In this document: positions 9,577 to 28,242 of the stretch, piece after piece
Layout: each line of letters opens with the position of its first letter
How positions within the stretch are numbered: the stretch's first letter is position 1
Source: Alphaproteobacteria bacterium
GTDB lineage: Bacteria > Planctomycetota > Phycisphaerae > UBA1845
Assembly: GCA_028285105.1 (NCBI GenBank)
Contig: JANQQE010000021.1
Coordinates: forward strand, 124,001-188,000
DNA: 64,000 bases
Direction of reading: 5' to 3'
Notes under the pieces: model-generated
Told to the model about the DNA's origin: nothing
Database searches by the model: none
What the model saw: only the letters and a program-made list of their open reading frames with translations
Translations under genes and position numbers: made by a program

Positions 9577-10014
9577 TCACAAACCGGCCAACCCATCCTT
9601 CGAAAGCACCGCAGCGTTTCCGCTAGCCCGCGCCGTTACGCCAACCGCACCGGCCAACTCACTTTCAGCCGGCAACGCAACATCGCCATTCGCCACGTTC
9701 GCAAGCCAACTCACCGCGGCTTCGTACTGCGAAGCAACTTCCGGCGGAATCGGTGGACGCCGAACGTGCAGTCGATGCGCAACCACATCAAGCGAAACCG
9801 TCGCCAAGCTCGATGCCAACTCATCATGCAACCCCACATCAATCGGCACACGAAACCGACGGGCCAGGTAACTGTTCACTTCGCCCTCCGCACCCTCGCG
9901 CGCTTCAGCGATCGCTTCCGCATTCGCCGAACCGGTTCCCGCATCGTCGGTCAACTGAACCAACGCGGCAATCCCCAACCGTCTCTCGATGTCTGCATCA
10001 GTGATATAGCTCAC
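9577..10014 (-). CDS. Mu gp36-like neck protein (DUF1320)
   Basis: A 145-residue protein beginning at a GTG at 10014 after a GGAAAGGCGAG site. The N-terminus (SYITDADIERRLG, then LTDD) and the following helix with EAREGAEGEVNSYLARRF are the DUF1320 signature: a helical head-completion protein related to Mu gp36 and HK97-type connectors. The helix with VAHRLHVRRP and the Ala-rich C-terminus fit the family length of about 140. It sits between the capsid gene and the gp37-like gene, the Mu order. Confidence 0.82.
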   Translation of the reverse strand: MSYITDADIERRLGIAALVQLTDDAGTGSANAEAIAEAREGAEGEVNSYLARRFRVPIDVGLHDELASSLATVSLDVVAHRLHVRRPPIPPEVASQYEAAVSWLANVANGDVALPAESELAGAVGVTARASGNAAVLSKDGLAGL

Positions 10015-10124
10015 GAGTTTCTCGCCTTTCCGTCAGCCCCATCAAACCGTGTTGGCGTCGCGACCGAAGCATCGCAGCCGCGCCGCCAACACGCACCACA
10101 CCCACAAACCAGACGACCTACCCA

Positions 10125-11045
10125 TCACGCAATCTGAAACGTAGACTTCACCGCAAACTGCCAGTAACCGTAAGCCATGCGATAGCGCGCTCGAACGCCA
10201 AACATCAACTTCTCGCGCTTGAACACATCGTCGCTACCGTCAGACAGCGAATTAAATTCAATCGGCTCGCGATCCTGGAAAATAAAAGGCCGCACCACCC
10301 CGTTGTTCTTAAGCAGATACCAACTGTCCGAATCGGTCAGCCAAGGAAATGCAATAACCTGCGCAGCGCCACGAAGGGCGTTGTCCGAATTGCTCGTCAC
10401 CGACGAGTTTACAGCTTCCAATGCCGAAAAATACATTGTCGGAGGAACCACGCAATACATACCGTCAGCCGCAATCGCCATCGGTTGACCTTGATCGTCC
10501 TTGAACGACATCATCCGCGTAATGCCATCAGCCAACGCATCGCGAAACTCCGAAAATGTCGGTTGCCCCGGAATCGACGCACCGGAAGTAAACGTGTTTG
10601 ACTGTGTACCGCTTCCACCCGACACATGACTCGAGCCAAAAAACGACACACCATCGTACGAGTTAAACCCGCTCTGATCGCCATTCTCCAAGAGCTGCGC
10701 AATCAGATAGTCCTTATGCGTTGCAGCCCTTTCAGCCAACTCGCCAATCCGCACACGAATCTGTCCCGTCTGGTCGTCCGACAACTCGTCGCGATCGACT
10801 TCCAGTGTCGATTCGTACTTGAGATTCTCAATCGAGTAACTCTCGGGTCGTAACCCACGGGCCACGCGGCCAGTCCCCCATTCGCGCATCTGCGGCACCG
10901 AGCCAAGCCATCGATAAATCTCCGTATGACTCGTCGAAACAATCCGCGTCGACAGTTCCTCAAAATGCGTCGGCGCACCGTCGAAACGATTCGCAAACTC
11001 GCTCCGCAAACCCTTCGTCAACAAACCTGTATTGATGATCGCCAC
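10125..11045 (-). CDS. Major capsid protein, Mu gp34-like
   Basis: A 306-residue protein. I choose the GTG at 11045 because AAGGAG lies 7 bases upstream; the frame upstream to 11087 has no such site. The N-terminus (TKGLRSEFANRFDGAPTHF, then the STRIVSTSH and YRWLG segments), the middle Leu/Glu/Arg-rich alpha segment and the C-terminal ARYRMAYGYWQFAV are the pattern of the Mu-type head subunit T (gp34) with the HK97 fold. It follows the decoration protein and precedes the neck protein, as in Mu-type phages. Mature head protein would be produced after processing by the protease encoded at 12005. Confidence 0.85.
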   Translation of the reverse strand: MAIINTGLLTKGLRSEFANRFDGAPTHFEELSTRIVSTSHTEIYRWLGSVPQMREWGTGRVARGLRPESYSIENLKYESTLEVDRDELSDDQTGQIRVRIGELAERAATHKDYLIAQLLENGDQSGFNSYDGVSFFGSSHVSGGSGTQSNTFTSGASIPGQPTFSEFRDALADGITRMMSFKDDQGQPMAIAADGMYCVVPPTMYFSALEAVNSSVTSNSDNALRGAAQVIAFPWLTDSDSWYLLKNNGVVRPFIFQDREPIEFNSLSDGSDDVFKREKLMFGVRARYRMAYGYWQFAVKSTFQIA

Positions 11046-14342: not shown

Positions 14343-15607
14343 TTACCAAATCCCGCGACGGTCGTATTTCAAAGGCCCAATCGTCATCGACTCAGCCACC
14401 CCCGGATCGTCTGCGGCTGCATAGACTGCCAACGCTGCCGCCCAAAACCGATCCGCGTGATGCCCCTCGCGCCGCGATGCATCCAAAACAATCCGCCCGC
14501 TCGGACTCACCCGTCGCTCCAGACTGTGCCAATCGTTGCGAATCGCTTCATCTGCCGGAATCCGAATTGCCCGATCCTCTACGGCAATCCGAAGTCGCGA
14601 TGCCAGTTCCGTCTTCAGACTGGCAGTAAATGTCACGCACTCAACTTTGTGTCGCCCGAAATCTTCCTGAGCCGTCTCAGCCAACTGCATCCCAAGCCCG
14701 CCCGCATCCACGCAACACTTCCGGACGTTGCGCAACGAAAGCACTTCGGCGATTCGCTCGCTCTGCGCGCGAAACGTTTCACCGCGCAATTCAATGACAC
14801 TTCGTGTCACCAATGACTCGCCCCGTCGCGCCAACACCCAGACAACCGTTAAATCGTGACGACGACCAATATCTACGCCGACAAACAAATCTTCCTTCTC
14901 AGCCGCCAATTCCGACACCGGCGTATTGCGATCCAACCCCAAATCCTCACAAGCACTGATCTGCGCATGCGTCAAAAACGCCGTACTCTCATCAATGAAT
15001 TCGCAGAGAAATTCCTGCCGAAAGAGTTGCTCGTCGCCCATGCTGCGACGCAGTTGATCGACATCGACGTCCAACCCCCGAGCCACCGCATCGGGAAGTG
15101 TCACCGTCGAATGTCCGAACTCCGAATTGTCGCGCAATCGCGCAAACGTGTTCTTGATCCCCTTGGGTGTCGACGCCACATCCAATTCGCCATCGCCACG
15201 CAGCAACGTCGGAAACATCGCCGCCCAAATCTCGCGATCGTCCGCATGCATCGCGAACTCATCGAGAAACAAATCGCCCGAAAACCCCCGCGCCGTCTGC
15301 GGATTCGCTGGCAGGCCAATCACTTTCACCCCACCCGGTAATCGTAGTTCCATTTGCTTGAACGACGTCCCCGCAAGACCCGACGCAGCGACTTCGTAGA
15401 ACTCTTTCCCGTCTGCCGCGACCAGCAGTTCCATCGAAATCGATCGCCACTTTCGACATCCTCACGCTGAAAGGGCAAGAGCGGCACAAAACACGACACC
15501 GATGCAGGCACGGTCGGCGCACCTCCAGATTCCTTAACCTCGCTCAAGTCGTATACCGCCCCATCGAGACCAAACGCAGCAACCGCGCCAACGCATTCAA
15601 AAGCCAC
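14343..15607 (-). pseudogene. Phage terminase large subunit, Mu gp28-like, frame-disrupted
   Basis: The conserved terminase is split over two frames. One frame, from 15607, carries LLPFQRED, DRFRWNCW and the Walker A motif SRQTGKS and then meets a stop at 15326. The other, ending at 14343, carries FKQMELRLPGG, RGFSGDLFLDEFAMH (Walker B region), STPKG, the nuclease-domain VGVDIGRRHDLTVVWVL and the C-terminal GHHADRFWAA. Both reading frames use the same bases near 15404-15410. A plain frameshift alone would omit the 40-60 residues normally found between Walker A and the FKQME region, so a small out-of-frame deletion is the simplest explanation. The motor and nuclease parts are otherwise recognisable. 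Confidence 0.8.
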
Positions 15608-15681
15608 AACTTGCTACGCGCATTACGTTCAACTACTCGCTTGCCAACATTTGACTGGACCGGTACAACCGTCTGCCGACC

Positions 15682-17982
15682 ATGAAAATCGCAAACCACC
15701 TCGCAATCTTGTGTTGGCTAATCCCGCTTGTCGTGACAACAGCTACAAGCCGCACCCACGCCGAAATCGCTGCCGGGCAGTGGCTCATCGATTACGGTCG
15801 GGCACACGGATATGCCGCCACCGATCCTCAACCTGCCGACGCCGAATTCATCCTCGTCTGGCTCGATGCAGCCACTGAGGTGTCACCCGATCTGTGGGAG
15901 GCATACCGCTGGCGCTACGATCTGCTCGCAAGACTCAATCGCGAAGAAGAAGCCGTCGAAAACCTGAAACGCTACTGCCAGGAGAAACCGAACGACGCGC
16001 CAGCCCTGCTCACATGGTTCAACACAGAATTTGCCCAACGACAGAAAATTGAAGATCGCATCGAGTTGTGTCGCACCTTCCTCGCGCGTCCCCAAGTACC
16101 AAGCGAAGTCGCCAGCGATATTCAACTCCAACTCGCCGCACTTCACGAAGGACAGGGTGATCGCAACTTGGCGCTGACCCAAACAAGAAAAGCCATCGAC
16201 ATCGCCCCGCACAACATGTCAGCCCACATCCTTCTCGCCGAACTGGAAGAACGAGCCACCCAAGCGGAAACGCAAGTAGACCTGCTTCTCAAATCGATCG
16301 CGATCGATCCCGTTTCGCCTCAACGGCATTGGGAATTGGCGGGTTACCTCAAACAAATGGGCATGTACGACGAAGCGCTTCAATGGCTTAAAATCGCGTC
16401 GAAAAACTGGACGCGAGCAACCGGAGGCCAACCGCCGTCACCAGGGCTAACCACCGAAATCGCCGAAATACAGCTGCAAAAGGGTGATCCAGCCACCGCC
16501 ATCTCCACCGCGCAGAACGCATTGAGCGTCGATCCAAAGTACGCACCTGCATCGTTCGTCATCATTCGAGCAGCCAAAAAATTAGGCCGTACCGAACTCG
16601 CCGACTCAGAATCGAGCAAACTCACCAATCGATTCCGCGAGTGGGAAACCAACCCGCACCGCGCCAATGCCGTCACCTGCGCCACCATCGCCGAGTACTT
16701 CTTGAACATCCAAATCGACCCGCAACGTGCAGTGCGCTACGCAGAACTAGCCGTCCAGAAAGACTCGGTCAACCCGGCGTATCGCGCGATGCTCGGTCAA
16801 AGCTACGGCGCGGCCAATCTCAACACCGAAGCGATTCAATCGTTCAATCTCCTTGCAACACTCGATGCAAGGTCAGCCGTCGCCTTCGCCAAAGCGCAGA
16901 ACGCAACCGGCAACCAAACCGCCGCCATCGAAACGCTGAAGTCCGCGGCATCGCGACCCAACGAACACCGCGACGAAATCGAGCGCGAACTTGATGCACT
17001 GAATGCGCTCGTACCACCGACACCGGACCTGACGCCGATCCGATCGCACCTCAGCGCCTTCGACAAGTTCCCCCTAACATTTGCAGCCAACCCATCCCAA
17101 TTCATCGAATTCGACGTTCAATTGAACACCAACGTGTGCGAATTCGGCGAAACGGCGTCGGCTACGCTAACCCTTAAAAACAAGGGAAATATGGACATCG
17201 TCCTCGGCACCAATCGCATGCTGAACCCGCAGGTAACCGTTTCGTTGCTGACCGATTCGCGACTCGACCCGACGCTCGAAAACTACCTGATGATCGACTT
17301 CCCGGGCGAGACAATTCTTAAGCCCGGCGAAACGCGGTCGGTCGAGCAATCGTTGGCCCAAACCGGCGGACACGTGTTCCTGACATCCCAGCCGCAACGA
17401 CGTATCGATCTAACCGCACGCTTCATCCTCGATCCGATCGCCAACGAGAACGGCAATGTCGTCTCGCGGTTACCCGGCATGAAACCCGTTGACGCAACAT
17501 TCATACGAACACCCGTCGATGCAACCGACGAAGGCCTGTCGAAACTCCGCAAACAACTCGTTGCCACCGAACCGTCCGAACGACTCGTCGCAAACGAGAC
17601 GTTCGTTGCATTGGTCATCGAACGGTTCGACTCGATGCAGCGCAAACCGCAAACCTACCACGCGGTGCCAATCGACCTCGATAAAATTTCCGACGACACC
17701 CTGGCCACCCTGCGCGACCCCAACCCATTCGTTCGCGCCCGGTCACTTGCAATCCAAACGCGGCTACCCATCCACCCCGATGCCATCCAAGCCGCGACGC
17801 CTCTCATCTCAGACCCGCATTGGCTACCCCGACTCCTCGCCGTCGAGTATTTCGCCAAAAAACAGGGGCCCGTCTTTCTCCCCGTTCTCGAACGCCTATC
17901 CGAGGATCCCCACCCGATCGTCGCAAGACTGGCTTCCCTATATCGCGAGCAAGCCAAATCACTCGGGCCAGCCCGTCGCTAA
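15682..17982 (+). CDS. Secreted TPR protein with C-terminal HEAT-like region
   Basis: A 766-residue protein with an N-terminal signal-like helix (about 8-27). From about 40 to 470 it is built of helical tetratricopeptide-type repeats (for instance AEFILVWLDAATEVSP, LALTQTRKAIDIAPHN, YDEALQWLKIASKN and AISTAQNALSVDPKYAPA). Residues 490-610 form a beta-sandwich unit (FIEFDVQLNTNVCEF to a TLTLKNKGNM segment, the look of an Ig-like domain). The C-terminal 130 residues (LATLRDPNPFVRARSLA, WLPRLLAVEYFAKK, PIVARLASLYREQ) are HEAT-like. Likely a periplasmic scaffold. It starts the + strand side after the strand switch at the phage block. Confidence 0.75.
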   Translation: MKIANHLAILCWLIPLVVTTATSRTHAEIAAGQWLIDYGRAHGYAATDPQPADAEFILVWLDAATEVSPDLWEAYRWRYDLLARLNREEEAVENLKRYCQEKPNDAPALLTWFNTEFAQRQKIEDRIELCRTFLARPQVPSEVASDIQLQLAALHEGQGDRNLALTQTRKAIDIAPHNMSAHILLAELEERATQAETQVDLLLKSIAIDPVSPQRHWELAGYLKQMGMYDEALQWLKIASKNWTRATGGQPPSPGLTTEIAEIQLQKGDPATAISTAQNALSVDPKYAPASFVIIRAAKKLGRTELADSESSKLTNRFREWETNPHRANAVTCATIAEYFLNIQIDPQRAVRYAELAVQKDSVNPAYRAMLGQSYGAANLNTEAIQSFNLLATLDARSAVAFAKAQNATGNQTAAIETLKSAASRPNEHRDEIERELDALNALVPPTPDLTPIRSHLSAFDKFPLTFAANPSQFIEFDVQLNTNVCEFGETASATLTLKNKGNMDIVLGTNRMLNPQVTVSLLTDSRLDPTLENYLMIDFPGETILKPGETRSVEQSLAQTGGHVFLTSQPQRRIDLTARFILDPIANENGNVVSRLPGMKPVDATFIRTPVDATDEGLSKLRKQLVATEPSERLVANETFVALVIERFDSMQRKPQTYHAVPIDLDKISDDTLATLRDPNPFVRARSLAIQTRLPIHPDAIQAATPLISDPHWLPRLLAVEYFAKKQGPVFLPVLERLSEDPHPIVARLASLYREQAKSLGPARR

Positions 17983-25757: not shown

Positions 25758-26096
25758 TCACGACCTATCATTCCGCAATGACTCCAAAACCATCTTTCGA
25801 ATATCTGGATATTCGCCGTCTTTCACGTTCGGAATCTGTCGCACCTGGTCTTTGGTAAAACGGTCCTCAGTTTCAATCCAAGCCGCATGTTCTCCACGAC
25901 TCCAGCTTGCGTTTGGGTCATCGTACAATGCTTCAATGAAGCGTTCGGCAATTTGATGCCCCCATTTGAGGGCTCTTTGTTCATTGCTGGCCAGTATGTA
26001 GAGTGCATGACTATCCTCATCGTCCCAACCGTGCTGTGCGTTATTCTTCCTTTGCACGGGCGTTTCGTAACCAAAGACATATAGATATTCCTTCAT
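25758..26096 (-). CDS. Small acidic protein, unknown function
   Basis: A 112-residue protein from the ATG at 26096. It is soluble with about 25 percent acidic residues, and has an Arg/Lys helix in the second quarter. The sequence (YVFGYETPVQRKNNAQHGWDDEDS, LYILASNEQRALKWG) does not match a family I know; it resembles small immunity-type proteins. It lies directly downstream, in the same direction, of the putative structured RNA at 26225-26952, 130 bases away. A coupling with that RNA would be possible but the RNA appears to have its own terminator. Confidence 0.5.
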   Translation of the reverse strand: MKEYLYVFGYETPVQRKNNAQHGWDDEDSHALYILASNEQRALKWGHQIAERFIEALYDDPNASWSRGEHAAWIETEDRFTKDQVRQIPNVKDGEYPDIRKMVLESLRNDRS

Positions 26097-26224: not shown

Positions 26225-26952
26225 GTGTTATGTAAAACGAAAAGAGGCAGCGTCCGGGCTCTCTCGCGCCGGACACTGCCACTTTCGTCCCAGGCTTGGG
26301 AATTCATCTGTTGGTGCGCTCTGCCAGTCCATGGGAAGACTGGCCGCTCTCTCTCATGTGCTCTCTCTGCAACTGGAAGCTGGTACGGGTCTCTCACCTC
26401 CGTACCAATTCCTTTGTAGTCGACGCGGGTCTCTCACCTCCGCATCAACCCTTGAAAACAAGCGCGGGTCTCTCAGGTCCGCACCAATTCTCAAAATGCC
26501 GTACAGCTCTCTCAATTCCGTACAGCGCTCTCTTTCGCAACCCGATGCCGAAACAAGTTCAGCGGGTCGCACCTCGACAGAAGGAGGTAGGGTTCCGTCG
26601 AGGCTCCTCTCTCCCGGATGTGCCGAATGACCGAAGCAGGTCAAGTCATCGGCGCACACCAACAGATATAGCAATCAGAGGCGATCGTTTTGACTCGCAA
26701 AACGCCAACCCGAAAAGCTCAAACCTAAACTTCAAATGAAAAGCGTTCTCTTGGGGACGCTCTCTCTAAATCCGTGGTCCGATGGCGAAACCAACCAACT
26801 GGCCGAAATGTCCATCGGACATTCTCGACACACAAACCATCCACAAAGGACAATAGCCCTGCGAGTGATACGCTGATTTCAAAAGTACTGACGCAAAAGG
26901 TACTGCCAACGGATACGGCATTGGGCGGGGATTGCTCTCTCTCCGCCACAAC
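26225..26952 (-). ncRNA. Putative structured RNA with GAGAGA stem-loop array
   Basis: No convincing gene fits 26097-27270. On the minus strand about ten GAGAGA motifs lie in hairpin loops with different closing stems. Examples (plus-strand arms, hairpin position): 26246-26280, arms GGCAG-GTCCGG and CCGGAC-CTGCC; 26382-26406, GGTACGG and CCGTACC; 26422-26446, GACGCGG and CCGCATC; 26461-26485; 26498-26526, ending GTAC and GTAC. C-A mismatches on the plus strand become G.U pairs on the minus strand, so the minus strand is the likely transcript. Other perfect stems are at 26323-26344, 26686-26704 and 26777-26820. A promoter precedes it at 26959 and a terminator-like hairpin follows at 26237. Role unknown. 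Confidence 0.6.
26237..26288 (-). terminator. 3'-terminal hairpin of the structured RNA
   Basis: On the minus strand, ACGAAAG and GGCAGTGTCCGG pair with CCGGACGCTGCC and CTTTTCGT with one U.G pair, a single mismatch and one bulge, leaving an 11-base loop that contains GAGAGA. The stem is followed by TTTTACA and later CGATTTTTT (about 26213-26219). Stem strength and the T-rich flank fit a terminator, and it is at the same time the last GAGAGA hairpin. Confidence 0.5.
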
Positions 26953-26958
26953 AACCAT

Positions 26959-26987
26959 ACTATACACCAAAAAATCGGGGAAAGCAA
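26959..26987 (-). promoter_or_regulatory. Sigma-70-type promoter for the structured RNA
   Basis: Read on the minus strand: TTGCTT (complement of 26982-26987), a 17-base spacer, then TATAGT (complement of 26959-26964). The start of transcription would fall near 26952, just before the first GAGAGA hairpin (GGCGG arms, 26924-26947). Four of six matches in the -35 box and five of six in the -10 box to the consensus make this a plausible vegetative promoter. Confidence 0.6.
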
Positions 26988-27270: not shown

Positions 27271-28242
27271 ATGAACGCAACGCGCATGCCAAACAACCCC
27301 ACCGCATCGTTGTCGATCTTGATGTGTCACGTATTTTTGTGTCAAAACATGGCACTCGCGCAAGATGCACTACTTCCGCAAGATGATACATCGTTTGATT
27401 TGAAGGCAGATTCGCCTGAACCAACCAACGGTGCCACAGACTACGACCAGCAGGATCAACCGAAACTACGCTGGTTCGGTCTCTACAAAGCCCCCATCGA
27501 CGACAACCTTGTCACCGATCGACCCGACTTCACCGAAAGCACCGAGGCCATCCCTGTCGGCAGGTTCCAACTTGAAATGGGGTACACCTTCACCTACGAC
27601 CGCGAAGACGATGTCCGCACCCGCGATCACACCGCCCCCGAACTGCTCCTCCGCATGGGTGTCGTCGATAACTTCGAACTCCGATTCGGCTGGGCTGGAT
27701 ATTCATACACTGAAACGCACGACACGGCGCGCAACTCTGCCGGAAGGCGCGTCAGCGATGAAGTTTGGGACCAGGGCGCAAACGACTTTGAACTCGGATT
27801 CAAATTGAAAATCGCCGAACAGGACGGCATTCGCCCGAACCTCGCCATCCTCGGAGGCATGACTTTCCCCACTGGAAGCAGCAACATCTCTCCCGGCGAC
27901 GTTGAACCATTGCTCGGGTTACTTTGGGCGTACGACTTATCCGATAACGCAGCCTTGGCGGGCCAATTCATCGTCGGAACCCCTGTCGAGGATGGCCGCC
28001 GCTACGTACAGTCGGCAGCGTCGATCAGCCTGGGTGTATCCCTCACCGAACGCCTGGGCACATATGTGGAGTACTTCGGCATTTATCACAACACCCGCGA
28101 AAGCGACTGCGCCCATACCGTCAACGGCGGATTTACCTACCTGATCAACAACAACCTGCAAGTCGATATTCGCGCCGGTGCCGGACTCAACGAAGAAGCC
28201 GACGACTTTTTCGCGGGGGCGGGCTTATCCTGGCGTTTCTGA
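27271..28242 (+). CDS. Outer-membrane beta-barrel, MetA-pathway phenol transporter-like
   Basis: A 323-residue protein with a signal peptide (cleavage about residue 31, after MALAQ). After an acidic linker comes the conserved opening LVTDRPDFTESTEAIPVGRFQLEMGYTF of PF13557-type barrels, followed by amphipathic strands (ELLLRMGVVDNFELRFGWAGY, DFELGFKLKI, LAILGGMTFPTGS) and a C-terminal Trp-Arg-Phe, the sorting signal for BAM. The family includes proteins linked to uptake of aromatics; substrate here cannot be told. A small lipoprotein gene follows 82 bases downstream, probably in the same transcript. Confidence 0.85.
   Translation: MNATRMPNNPTASLSILMCHVFLCQNMALAQDALLPQDDTSFDLKADSPEPTNGATDYDQQDQPKLRWFGLYKAPIDDNLVTDRPDFTESTEAIPVGRFQLEMGYTFTYDREDDVRTRDHTAPELLLRMGVVDNFELRFGWAGYSYTETHDTARNSAGRRVSDEVWDQGANDFELGFKLKIAEQDGIRPNLAILGGMTFPTGSSNISPGDVEPLLGLLWAYDLSDNAALAGQFIVGTPVEDGRRYVQSAASISLGVSLTERLGTYVEYFGIYHNTRESDCAHTVNGGFTYLINNNLQVDIRAGAGLNEEADDFFAGAGLSWRF

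Follow-up and report, generated by a model that had tools for sequence, protein, structure and literature searches.

The 64,000-nt stretch of DNA analysed here (the window: positions 124,001-188,000 of the forward strand of contig JANQQE010000021.1, assembly GCA_028285105.1) contains a locus, RNA1, that very probably represents a real and new family of non-coding RNA. Of 51 genomes from a single Phycisphaerae family, 15 have RNA1. It is conserved, covarying and promoter-bearing, exposes GA loops and contains no CUCUC. We propose that it is a multivalent sponge for other RNAs that carry CU tracts; this function is inferred, without expression data, and we consider it as likely to be wrong as right. 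Positions of the features discussed are collected in Table 1.

Table 1. RNA1 and its parts in window coordinates, followed by the RNAs and the mRNA leader outside the window, given by locus.
Feature	Position	Strand	Basis or remark
RNA1, non-coding GAGAGA-loop array, ~720 nt	26234..26956	-	Fold z -7.5; homologs; no conserved ORF
Sigma70-type promoter of RNA1	26959..26987	-	-35 TTGCTT 26982-26987; 17-nt spacer; -10 TATAGT 26959-26964
5′ hairpin GGCGG-AGAGAGAGCAATCC-CCGCC, loop GAGAGAGAG	26924..26947	-	Unchanged in 5/5 genus members except for one inserted base
Long-range closing stem, 5′ arm ATCTGTTGGTGTGC	26654..26667	-	Pairs with 26306-26319
Long-range closing stem, 3′ arm GCGCACCAACAGAT	26306..26319	-	Partner of 26654-26667
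GAGAGA array, looped or unpaired	26346..26620	-	Starts at 26348, 26350, 26362, 26390, 26430, 26469, 26508, 26608
Box CCCAAGCCUGGG, between closing stem and terminal hairpin	26289..26300	-	CAAGCCUGG in 13/14 homologs, CCAAGCCUGGG in 12/14
3′ hairpin GGCAGTGTCCGG-CGCGAGAGAGC-CCGGACGCTGCC, then TCTTTTCGTTTT	26234..26280	-	Probable intrinsic terminator; GAGAGAG loop
RNA2, small RNA with (UC)5-6CCCUCCC by terminator	L094 ~10175 to 9815, G000:C10	-	Beside tRNA-Lys(ctt); kept in G002
RNA2 in G002	L121 ~15280-15650	+	Conserved counterpart
RNA2 3′ unit, two tandem copies	L089:1480-1690, G098 (other family, same order)	+	Second copy ends TAATTTTTT
RNA3, CU-tract RNA, ~400 nt	L094 ~16250-16675	+	Matched by RNA2 model, E 1.5e-4, in both genomes
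RNA3 in second genome	L121 ~9710-10160	-	91% identity between the two species
mRNA leader with box and GAGAGAGC	L213:6993-7060, G011 = CP070691.1	-	Gene for a 940-aa secreted-type protein

RNA1 lies between divergent flanks, 25758-26096 on the minus strand and 27271-28242 on the plus strand. The promoter places its 5′ end near 26956, and its 3′ end was set near 26234, similarity within the genus ending just past the terminal hairpin (judged by eye). This hairpin has 12 bp (26280-26246); a simple terminator scan missed it because the run of U residues is broken and the loop exceeds the length limit of that scan. Folding of the minus strand gave a z of -7.5 relative to dinucleotide shuffles (0/20 equal), versus -2.8 for the plus strand. 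In a smaller repeat with 12 shuffles the window sequence scored -4.6 on both strands and the strand difference was less clear; the relatives G001-G004 showed a clear one in that same repeat. Promoter, terminator and fold together give good support to the minus strand as the transcribed strand, an inference from sequence for which there are no transcript data.

Twelve copies of GAGAGA occur in RNA1 between 26260 and 26943, every one on the minus strand, compared with a mean of 1.4 and a maximum of 8 in dinucleotide-shuffled RNA1. Five hairpins between 26246 and 26526 carry GAGAGA in a common loop on differing stems, and the predicted probability of being unpaired in the array is 0.77 inside the motif versus 0.26 for other purines. 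The arms of the long-range closing stem are 93% complementary. In the genus alignment the GA motifs of the array stand out as invariant islands. Window positions 26680-26900, from the 5′ hairpin to the closing stem, are poorly conserved and of variable length within the genus, and the stem at 26777-26820 is poorly conserved even there; the conserved structure is therefore the 5′ hairpin, the domain 26245-26670 and the 3′ hairpin. A preliminary description of the locus had claimed five hairpins at 26246-26526 with a common loop and differing stems, about ten GAGAGA motifs in total, perfect stems elsewhere, an RNA read from the minus strand and an end at 26952. The hairpins and the motif count (12, minus strand only) held, with the qualification that the stem at 26777-26820 is poorly conserved. 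The strand is supported as described above, without transcript data, and the end was about right, the promoter putting it near 26956.

A DNA search recovered RNA1 in each of the genus's four remaining genomes (68-82% identity) and fragments in two further genera. A covariance model built on the box and terminal hairpin (R1) matched 14 of the 51 family genomes, in 8 of 32 genera. A fifteenth homolog, in G067, is truncated by the contig end and was left out of the set of complete homologs (n = 14). When a broader model was run on 397 genomes of the class it found only that family, apart from weak matches, one of which was informative: L089 in G098, a genome of another family, where it marks the RNA2 units described below. 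Weak order-level matches of the 3′ model (L026-L030) were rejected, having no GA cluster, as were other GA clusters in the order, which lack promoter and box. Viral, plasmid and phage collections yielded chance matches or none. Named records with RNA1 are Phycisphaerae or planctomycete MAGs (e.g. CP070691.1 and JAJDDQ010000064.1), and all eight have 7-17 GAGAGA within 450 nt upstream of the 3′ element; chance pattern matches in six unrelated GTDB genomes and three viral contigs have zero GAGAGA in that interval.

The complete homologs are 310-777 nt long, and each of the 14 has a TTGnnn-N17-TAnnnT promoter at its 5′ end, with a spacer of always 17 nt. Each contains 8-18 overlapping GAGAGA (5-11 GA runs) versus ~1-2 in shuffles; GAGAG was counted 263 times in the 14 homologs versus 55 in shuffles (z 28.5), and CUCUC occurs in none of them. 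Their GA motifs are predicted to be unpaired with a probability of 0.60-0.81, versus 0.26-0.44 for other purines. The three closest relatives keep every GA motif and the fourth keeps most, while spacers and stems diverge. The one homolog that has lost the box is that of G017. In three genomes, G072 (L022), G018 (L023) and G024 (L006), the GA motifs are longer, up to GAGAGAGAGAGAGA, with CTCG or CCCG between, and look like microsatellite-style expansions. A group II intron D1-D4 match (RF02003, E 3e-21; L019:1310-1450, minus strand) lies ~50 nt downstream of the RNA1 of G033, in the same orientation.

Covariation was clearest in the 3′ hairpin, where 8 of 12 pairs are altered on both sides and 94% of cells are paired; none of 500 shuffles scored as high, and slid controls reached 31-47%. 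Genus-wide, RNAalifold identified 23 doubly changed pairs, including some inside array hairpins. In other genera the arms of the closing stem differ yet remain pairable on hand reading. Shuffling one arm gave single-genome p values of 0.01-0.96, significant only in some, and a combined p of 0.0009, which is generous, the genomes being related. The checks of covariation and of homologous hairpins in relatives, both named in the preliminary description, were thus passed, the former beyond controls (8/12 and 23 pairs) and the latter by the presence of GAGAGA-loop RNAs. Its claim of a candidate new structured RNA is well supported by homologs, covariation and the lack of an Rfam match, and its failure to recognise a known RNA class is consistent with the last: neither the window's RNA1 nor any homolog scanned matched Rfam (release 15) at or above the gathering score, and the only Rfam hit in the window is a tRNA elsewhere.

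It can be all but excluded that the region codes for protein, or that it is merely intergenic sequence rich in repeats and without function. In favour of coding, RNA1 is overlapped on the plus strand by open frames, the longest of 147 aa. Against either reading, the frames are unconserved and the GA motifs fall in all frames, and invariant motifs persist among diverged spacers, together with promoters and covariation. Sense ORFs in the homologs reach at most 29-106 aa, in unconserved frames, with GAGAGA in all three. The genes beside RNA1 differ from genus to genus, and a cis-acting leader was rejected on this ground. Unconserved frames and differing neighbours therefore indicate a stand-alone RNA of the trans-acting type.

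Two conserved loci with CU tracts adjoining terminators, RNA2 and RNA3, exist outside the window; their transcription is inferred. When 400 kb of the window's own contig was aligned to G002, all 8 aligned non-coding GAGAGAG/CTCTCTC positions were conserved, versus 21% of non-coding 7-mers. These positions, from which RNA1 sites were excluded, overlap in GA runs and amount to few independent places, at two loci. RNA2 ends in UCUCUCUCUCUCCCUCCCA-GGC-UU-GGGCUGUUC-AAUA-GAACAGCCC-UU-GCC-AAUUUUU, its invariant 3′ part being CUCUCUCUCUCCCUCCCAGGCUUGGG, followed by the terminator. The 26-nt sequence CTCTCTCTCTCCCTCCCAGGCTTGGG is identical in G000 (the window's genome) and G002, and occurs twice, in tandem, in G098, where one change in the terminator stem is compensatory and another gives G-U, and where six U stand in a row; no RNA1 was detected in G098. 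Three observations set the strand of RNA2: the terminator with its U run, G-U pairs that would turn into C-A mismatches if the opposite strand were read, and better folding (z -5.7/-6.8 versus -3.0/-5.3). An interpretation of this locus as a plus-strand relative of RNA1 was dropped, as the strand evidence favours minus. So far RNA2 is known only from two species of the genus to which the window belongs and from G098; the 1.2 Mb of G011 that was read (about a third of the genome) did not contain it. RNA3 carries CUCUCUCUCU ahead of its terminator, TTGACT-N18-TAAGAA upstream and an internal GAGAGAGAAG; its ends are promoter-like and terminator-like. The RNA2 model found no match in a further 1.16 Mb of both genomes, and Rfam gave none for RNA2 or RNA3.

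RNA2 and RNA3 have CU tracts complementary to the GA loops of RNA1. The RNA1 box, moreover, matches CCCAGGCUUGGG exactly in reverse complement; this sequence is the half of the RNA2 segment that lies outside the repeat. Exact complementarity to this non-repeat part extends over 9-13 nt in 13/14 RNA1 homologs (11-13 nt in 12/14), compared with a mean of ~6 nt in shuffled RNA1, and each homolog also has 7-15 GAGAGAG positions complementary to CUCUCUC. RNA1 fulfils one criterion for a sponge, in that it is complementary to a seed conserved in another small RNA. The complementarity between RNA1 and RNA2 is a direct observation, while pairing in cells is inferred, there being no expression or interaction data. 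Both RNAs co-occur in G000 and G002; in G011, which has RNA1, no RNA2 appeared in the 1.2 Mb read. The RNA2 anti-box lies partly inside the RNA2 terminator stem, which pairing would need to open.

In the model we favour, for which the preliminary description offered no counterpart since it proposed no function, RNA1 would be made independently and act in trans. The GA runs on its hairpin loops would be docking sites for CU tracts of other RNAs, and the single CAAGCCUGGG box would provide an extra, longer pairing site for RNA2. Once paired, RNA2 and RNA3 would have their CU tracts covered and could not reach their own targets or close their own GA/CU stem. Their C/U-rich seeds would suit purine-rich leaders. 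Joint production, pairing in the cell, inhibition rather than activation, and the targets of RNA2 and RNA3 are all inferred. Against the sponge, no target regulon was detected, RNA2 is confirmed in few genomes and is missing from the third of G011 that was read, and the homolog of G017 lacks the box. No RNA chaperone is known to aid RNA1 pairing.

A related reading, which we regard as unlikely, is strand exchange, in which RNA1 GA loops invade the GA/CU stem closing RNA2 or RNA3, and the refolding leads to activation or processing. In its favour, folding predictions for both G000 and G002 have the CU tract of either RNA paired with GA-rich sequence close to its own 5′ end (P 0.73-0.93), in most cases the GAGAGAGA motif; the conserved GAGAGAGA/CU sites of both RNAs sit in aligned non-coding sequence. 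RNA1 would therefore have to displace the internal GA, and would thereby act by strand exchange and not merely as a sponge. However, the RNA2 of G098 has CU tracts without an upstream GAGAGA, and the idea rests on two genomes of one genus and on single-sequence folding. Combining sponge and exchange, a bolder reading is an RNA-only circuit without detectable Hfq, in which an RNA with ~ten GA loops captures or refolds at least two CU-tract RNAs with an internal GA motif. We lean slightly against this version. To our knowledge, no natural array sponge directed at RNA instead of protein has been described in bacteria, so that this one, if true, would be the first.

Returning to the sponge model and to what it might regulate, RNA2-seed complementarity in the leaders of 576 predicted genes showed no excess over shuffled seeds. 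A single leader, in G011, contains CACCAAGCCUGGAAGGGGGAGAGAGC ~38 nt ahead of the AUG. It shares GRUCACCAAGCCUGG with the RNA1 of the same genome, which exceeds the sharing between genera, and composite sites of this kind are expected by chance ~0.002 times in 1.2 Mb (our rough estimate). A G/A difference between this leader and RNA1 retains pairing to U, as might be expected, judging from sequence, if both faced one RNA2-like seed. The leader is a possible target of an RNA2-like RNA, no more. Direct regulation, in which the GA loops would pair with CUCUCUC in many mRNAs, appears very unlikely. It has in its favour only complementarity and the trans-acting layout without a fixed neighbour; against it, CTCTCTC upstream of ATG is no commoner in RNA1-positive genomes (medians relative to control 1.72 in RNA1-positive and 1.60 in RNA1-negative genomes, p 0.36). 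GAGAGAG ahead of ATG is alike in the two groups, and both comparisons also speak against the sponge model.

The G011 leader also bears on a further rival, which remains possible: a CsrB-like protein sponge, whose ligand, an RNA-binding protein not yet identified, would read the GAGAGA(G/C)C loops and also this composite site where mRNA leaders carry it. Many identical loops on differing stems are the CsrB architecture, and the G011 leader has box and GAGAGAGC ahead of the start codon. Against it, the obvious candidates, CsrA, Hfq and RRM proteins, fail, and a strict 9-13 nt box that exactly complements another conserved RNA would be unexpected. A CsrA sponge was rejected: GGA (142 versus 172 shuffled, z -3.2) and AGGA (23 versus 56, z -4.8) are depleted, and ANGGA stands at 43 versus 37 (z 1.1) in the RNA1 homologs. 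A CsrA gene is present in 50/51 family genomes, with two copies in the window's genus, and its presence is uninformative because RNA1-negative genomes also encode it. The two genes of the window's genome lie at G000:C32:30311-30466 and 111533-111688, and other genus members also have two. An Hfq sponge was attractive because Bacillus subtilis Hfq binds AGAGAG via its distal face (PMC3511402), and was rejected because no Hfq gene was found (PF17209 0/51 and PF21979 0/51 genomes over cut-off). A sponge for RRM proteins was rejected, none being detected in G001, G002, G003 or G017, all RNA1-positive, and so was a Shine-Dalgarno mimic, GGAG and GGAGG being without enrichment in RNA1.

RNA1, RNA2 and RNA3 represent three uncatalogued RNA families in a phylum with little known regulatory RNA. 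Known array sponges bind proteins, as CsrB does, or microRNAs, the latter in animals. If the RNA-sponge model is correct, such sponges have also arisen in bacteria with no detectable Hfq, where their ligands are RNAs that act by base pairing. The model makes sharp predictions, CU tract versus GA loops and box versus anti-box, which are cheap to test in vitro and in E. coli and do not require culture of the source organism.

Among known systems, RNA1 is most like CsrB, CsrC, RsmY and RsmZ in layout: one trans-acting RNA with many short-motif loops on unrelated stems, its own promoter and a 3′ terminator. CsrB has ~18 GGA sites (PMC8383071). Unlike that family, RNA1 carries GAGAGA(G/C) and not (A)NGGA, has GGA and AGGA below expectation, gives no CsrB-type match in Rfam, and has as its likely ligand, by inference, RNA and not CsrA. 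It falls outside the CsrB family, because a test for GGA, the defining motif, was negative. The long, highly structured, rare, lineage-restricted and stand-alone RNAs OLE, GOLLD, ROOL and raiA/ModT are similar in those respects; however, their Rfam models gave no match, and RNA1 conserves a repeated loop motif rather than one intricate core. The AGAGAG ligand in the B. subtilis Hfq complex (PDB 3HSB, cited in PMC3511402) is exactly the displayed motif, but neither an Hfq nor an Hfq_1 gene exceeded the cut-off in the 51 family genomes. A weak match to ncS025 (RF02869, Burkholderia sRNA 25) at the 3′ end of the G024 homolog scored 33.7 bits, below the gathering threshold of 46, and involves a single homolog among those scanned, and ncS025 has no GAGAGA; homology was rejected on this lone sub-threshold match, which we take to be a terminator-type chance likeness. 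The sponges SroC, 3′ETS-leuZ, QrrX and CrfA are, like RNA1, non-coding RNAs whose sequence is complementary to small-RNA seeds, and have been described with one or few sites. CrfA sponges four sibling sRNAs of one family (PMC12559287), and RNA1 would likewise serve several RNAs, namely RNA2 and RNA3. RNA1 differs from these sponges in displaying ~ten sites on a highly structured RNA of ~300-780 nt, in bacteria with no detectable Hfq. By analogy, and with the pairing itself inferred, RNA1 would resemble CsrB in its architecture and SroC, QrrX and CrfA in its chemistry.
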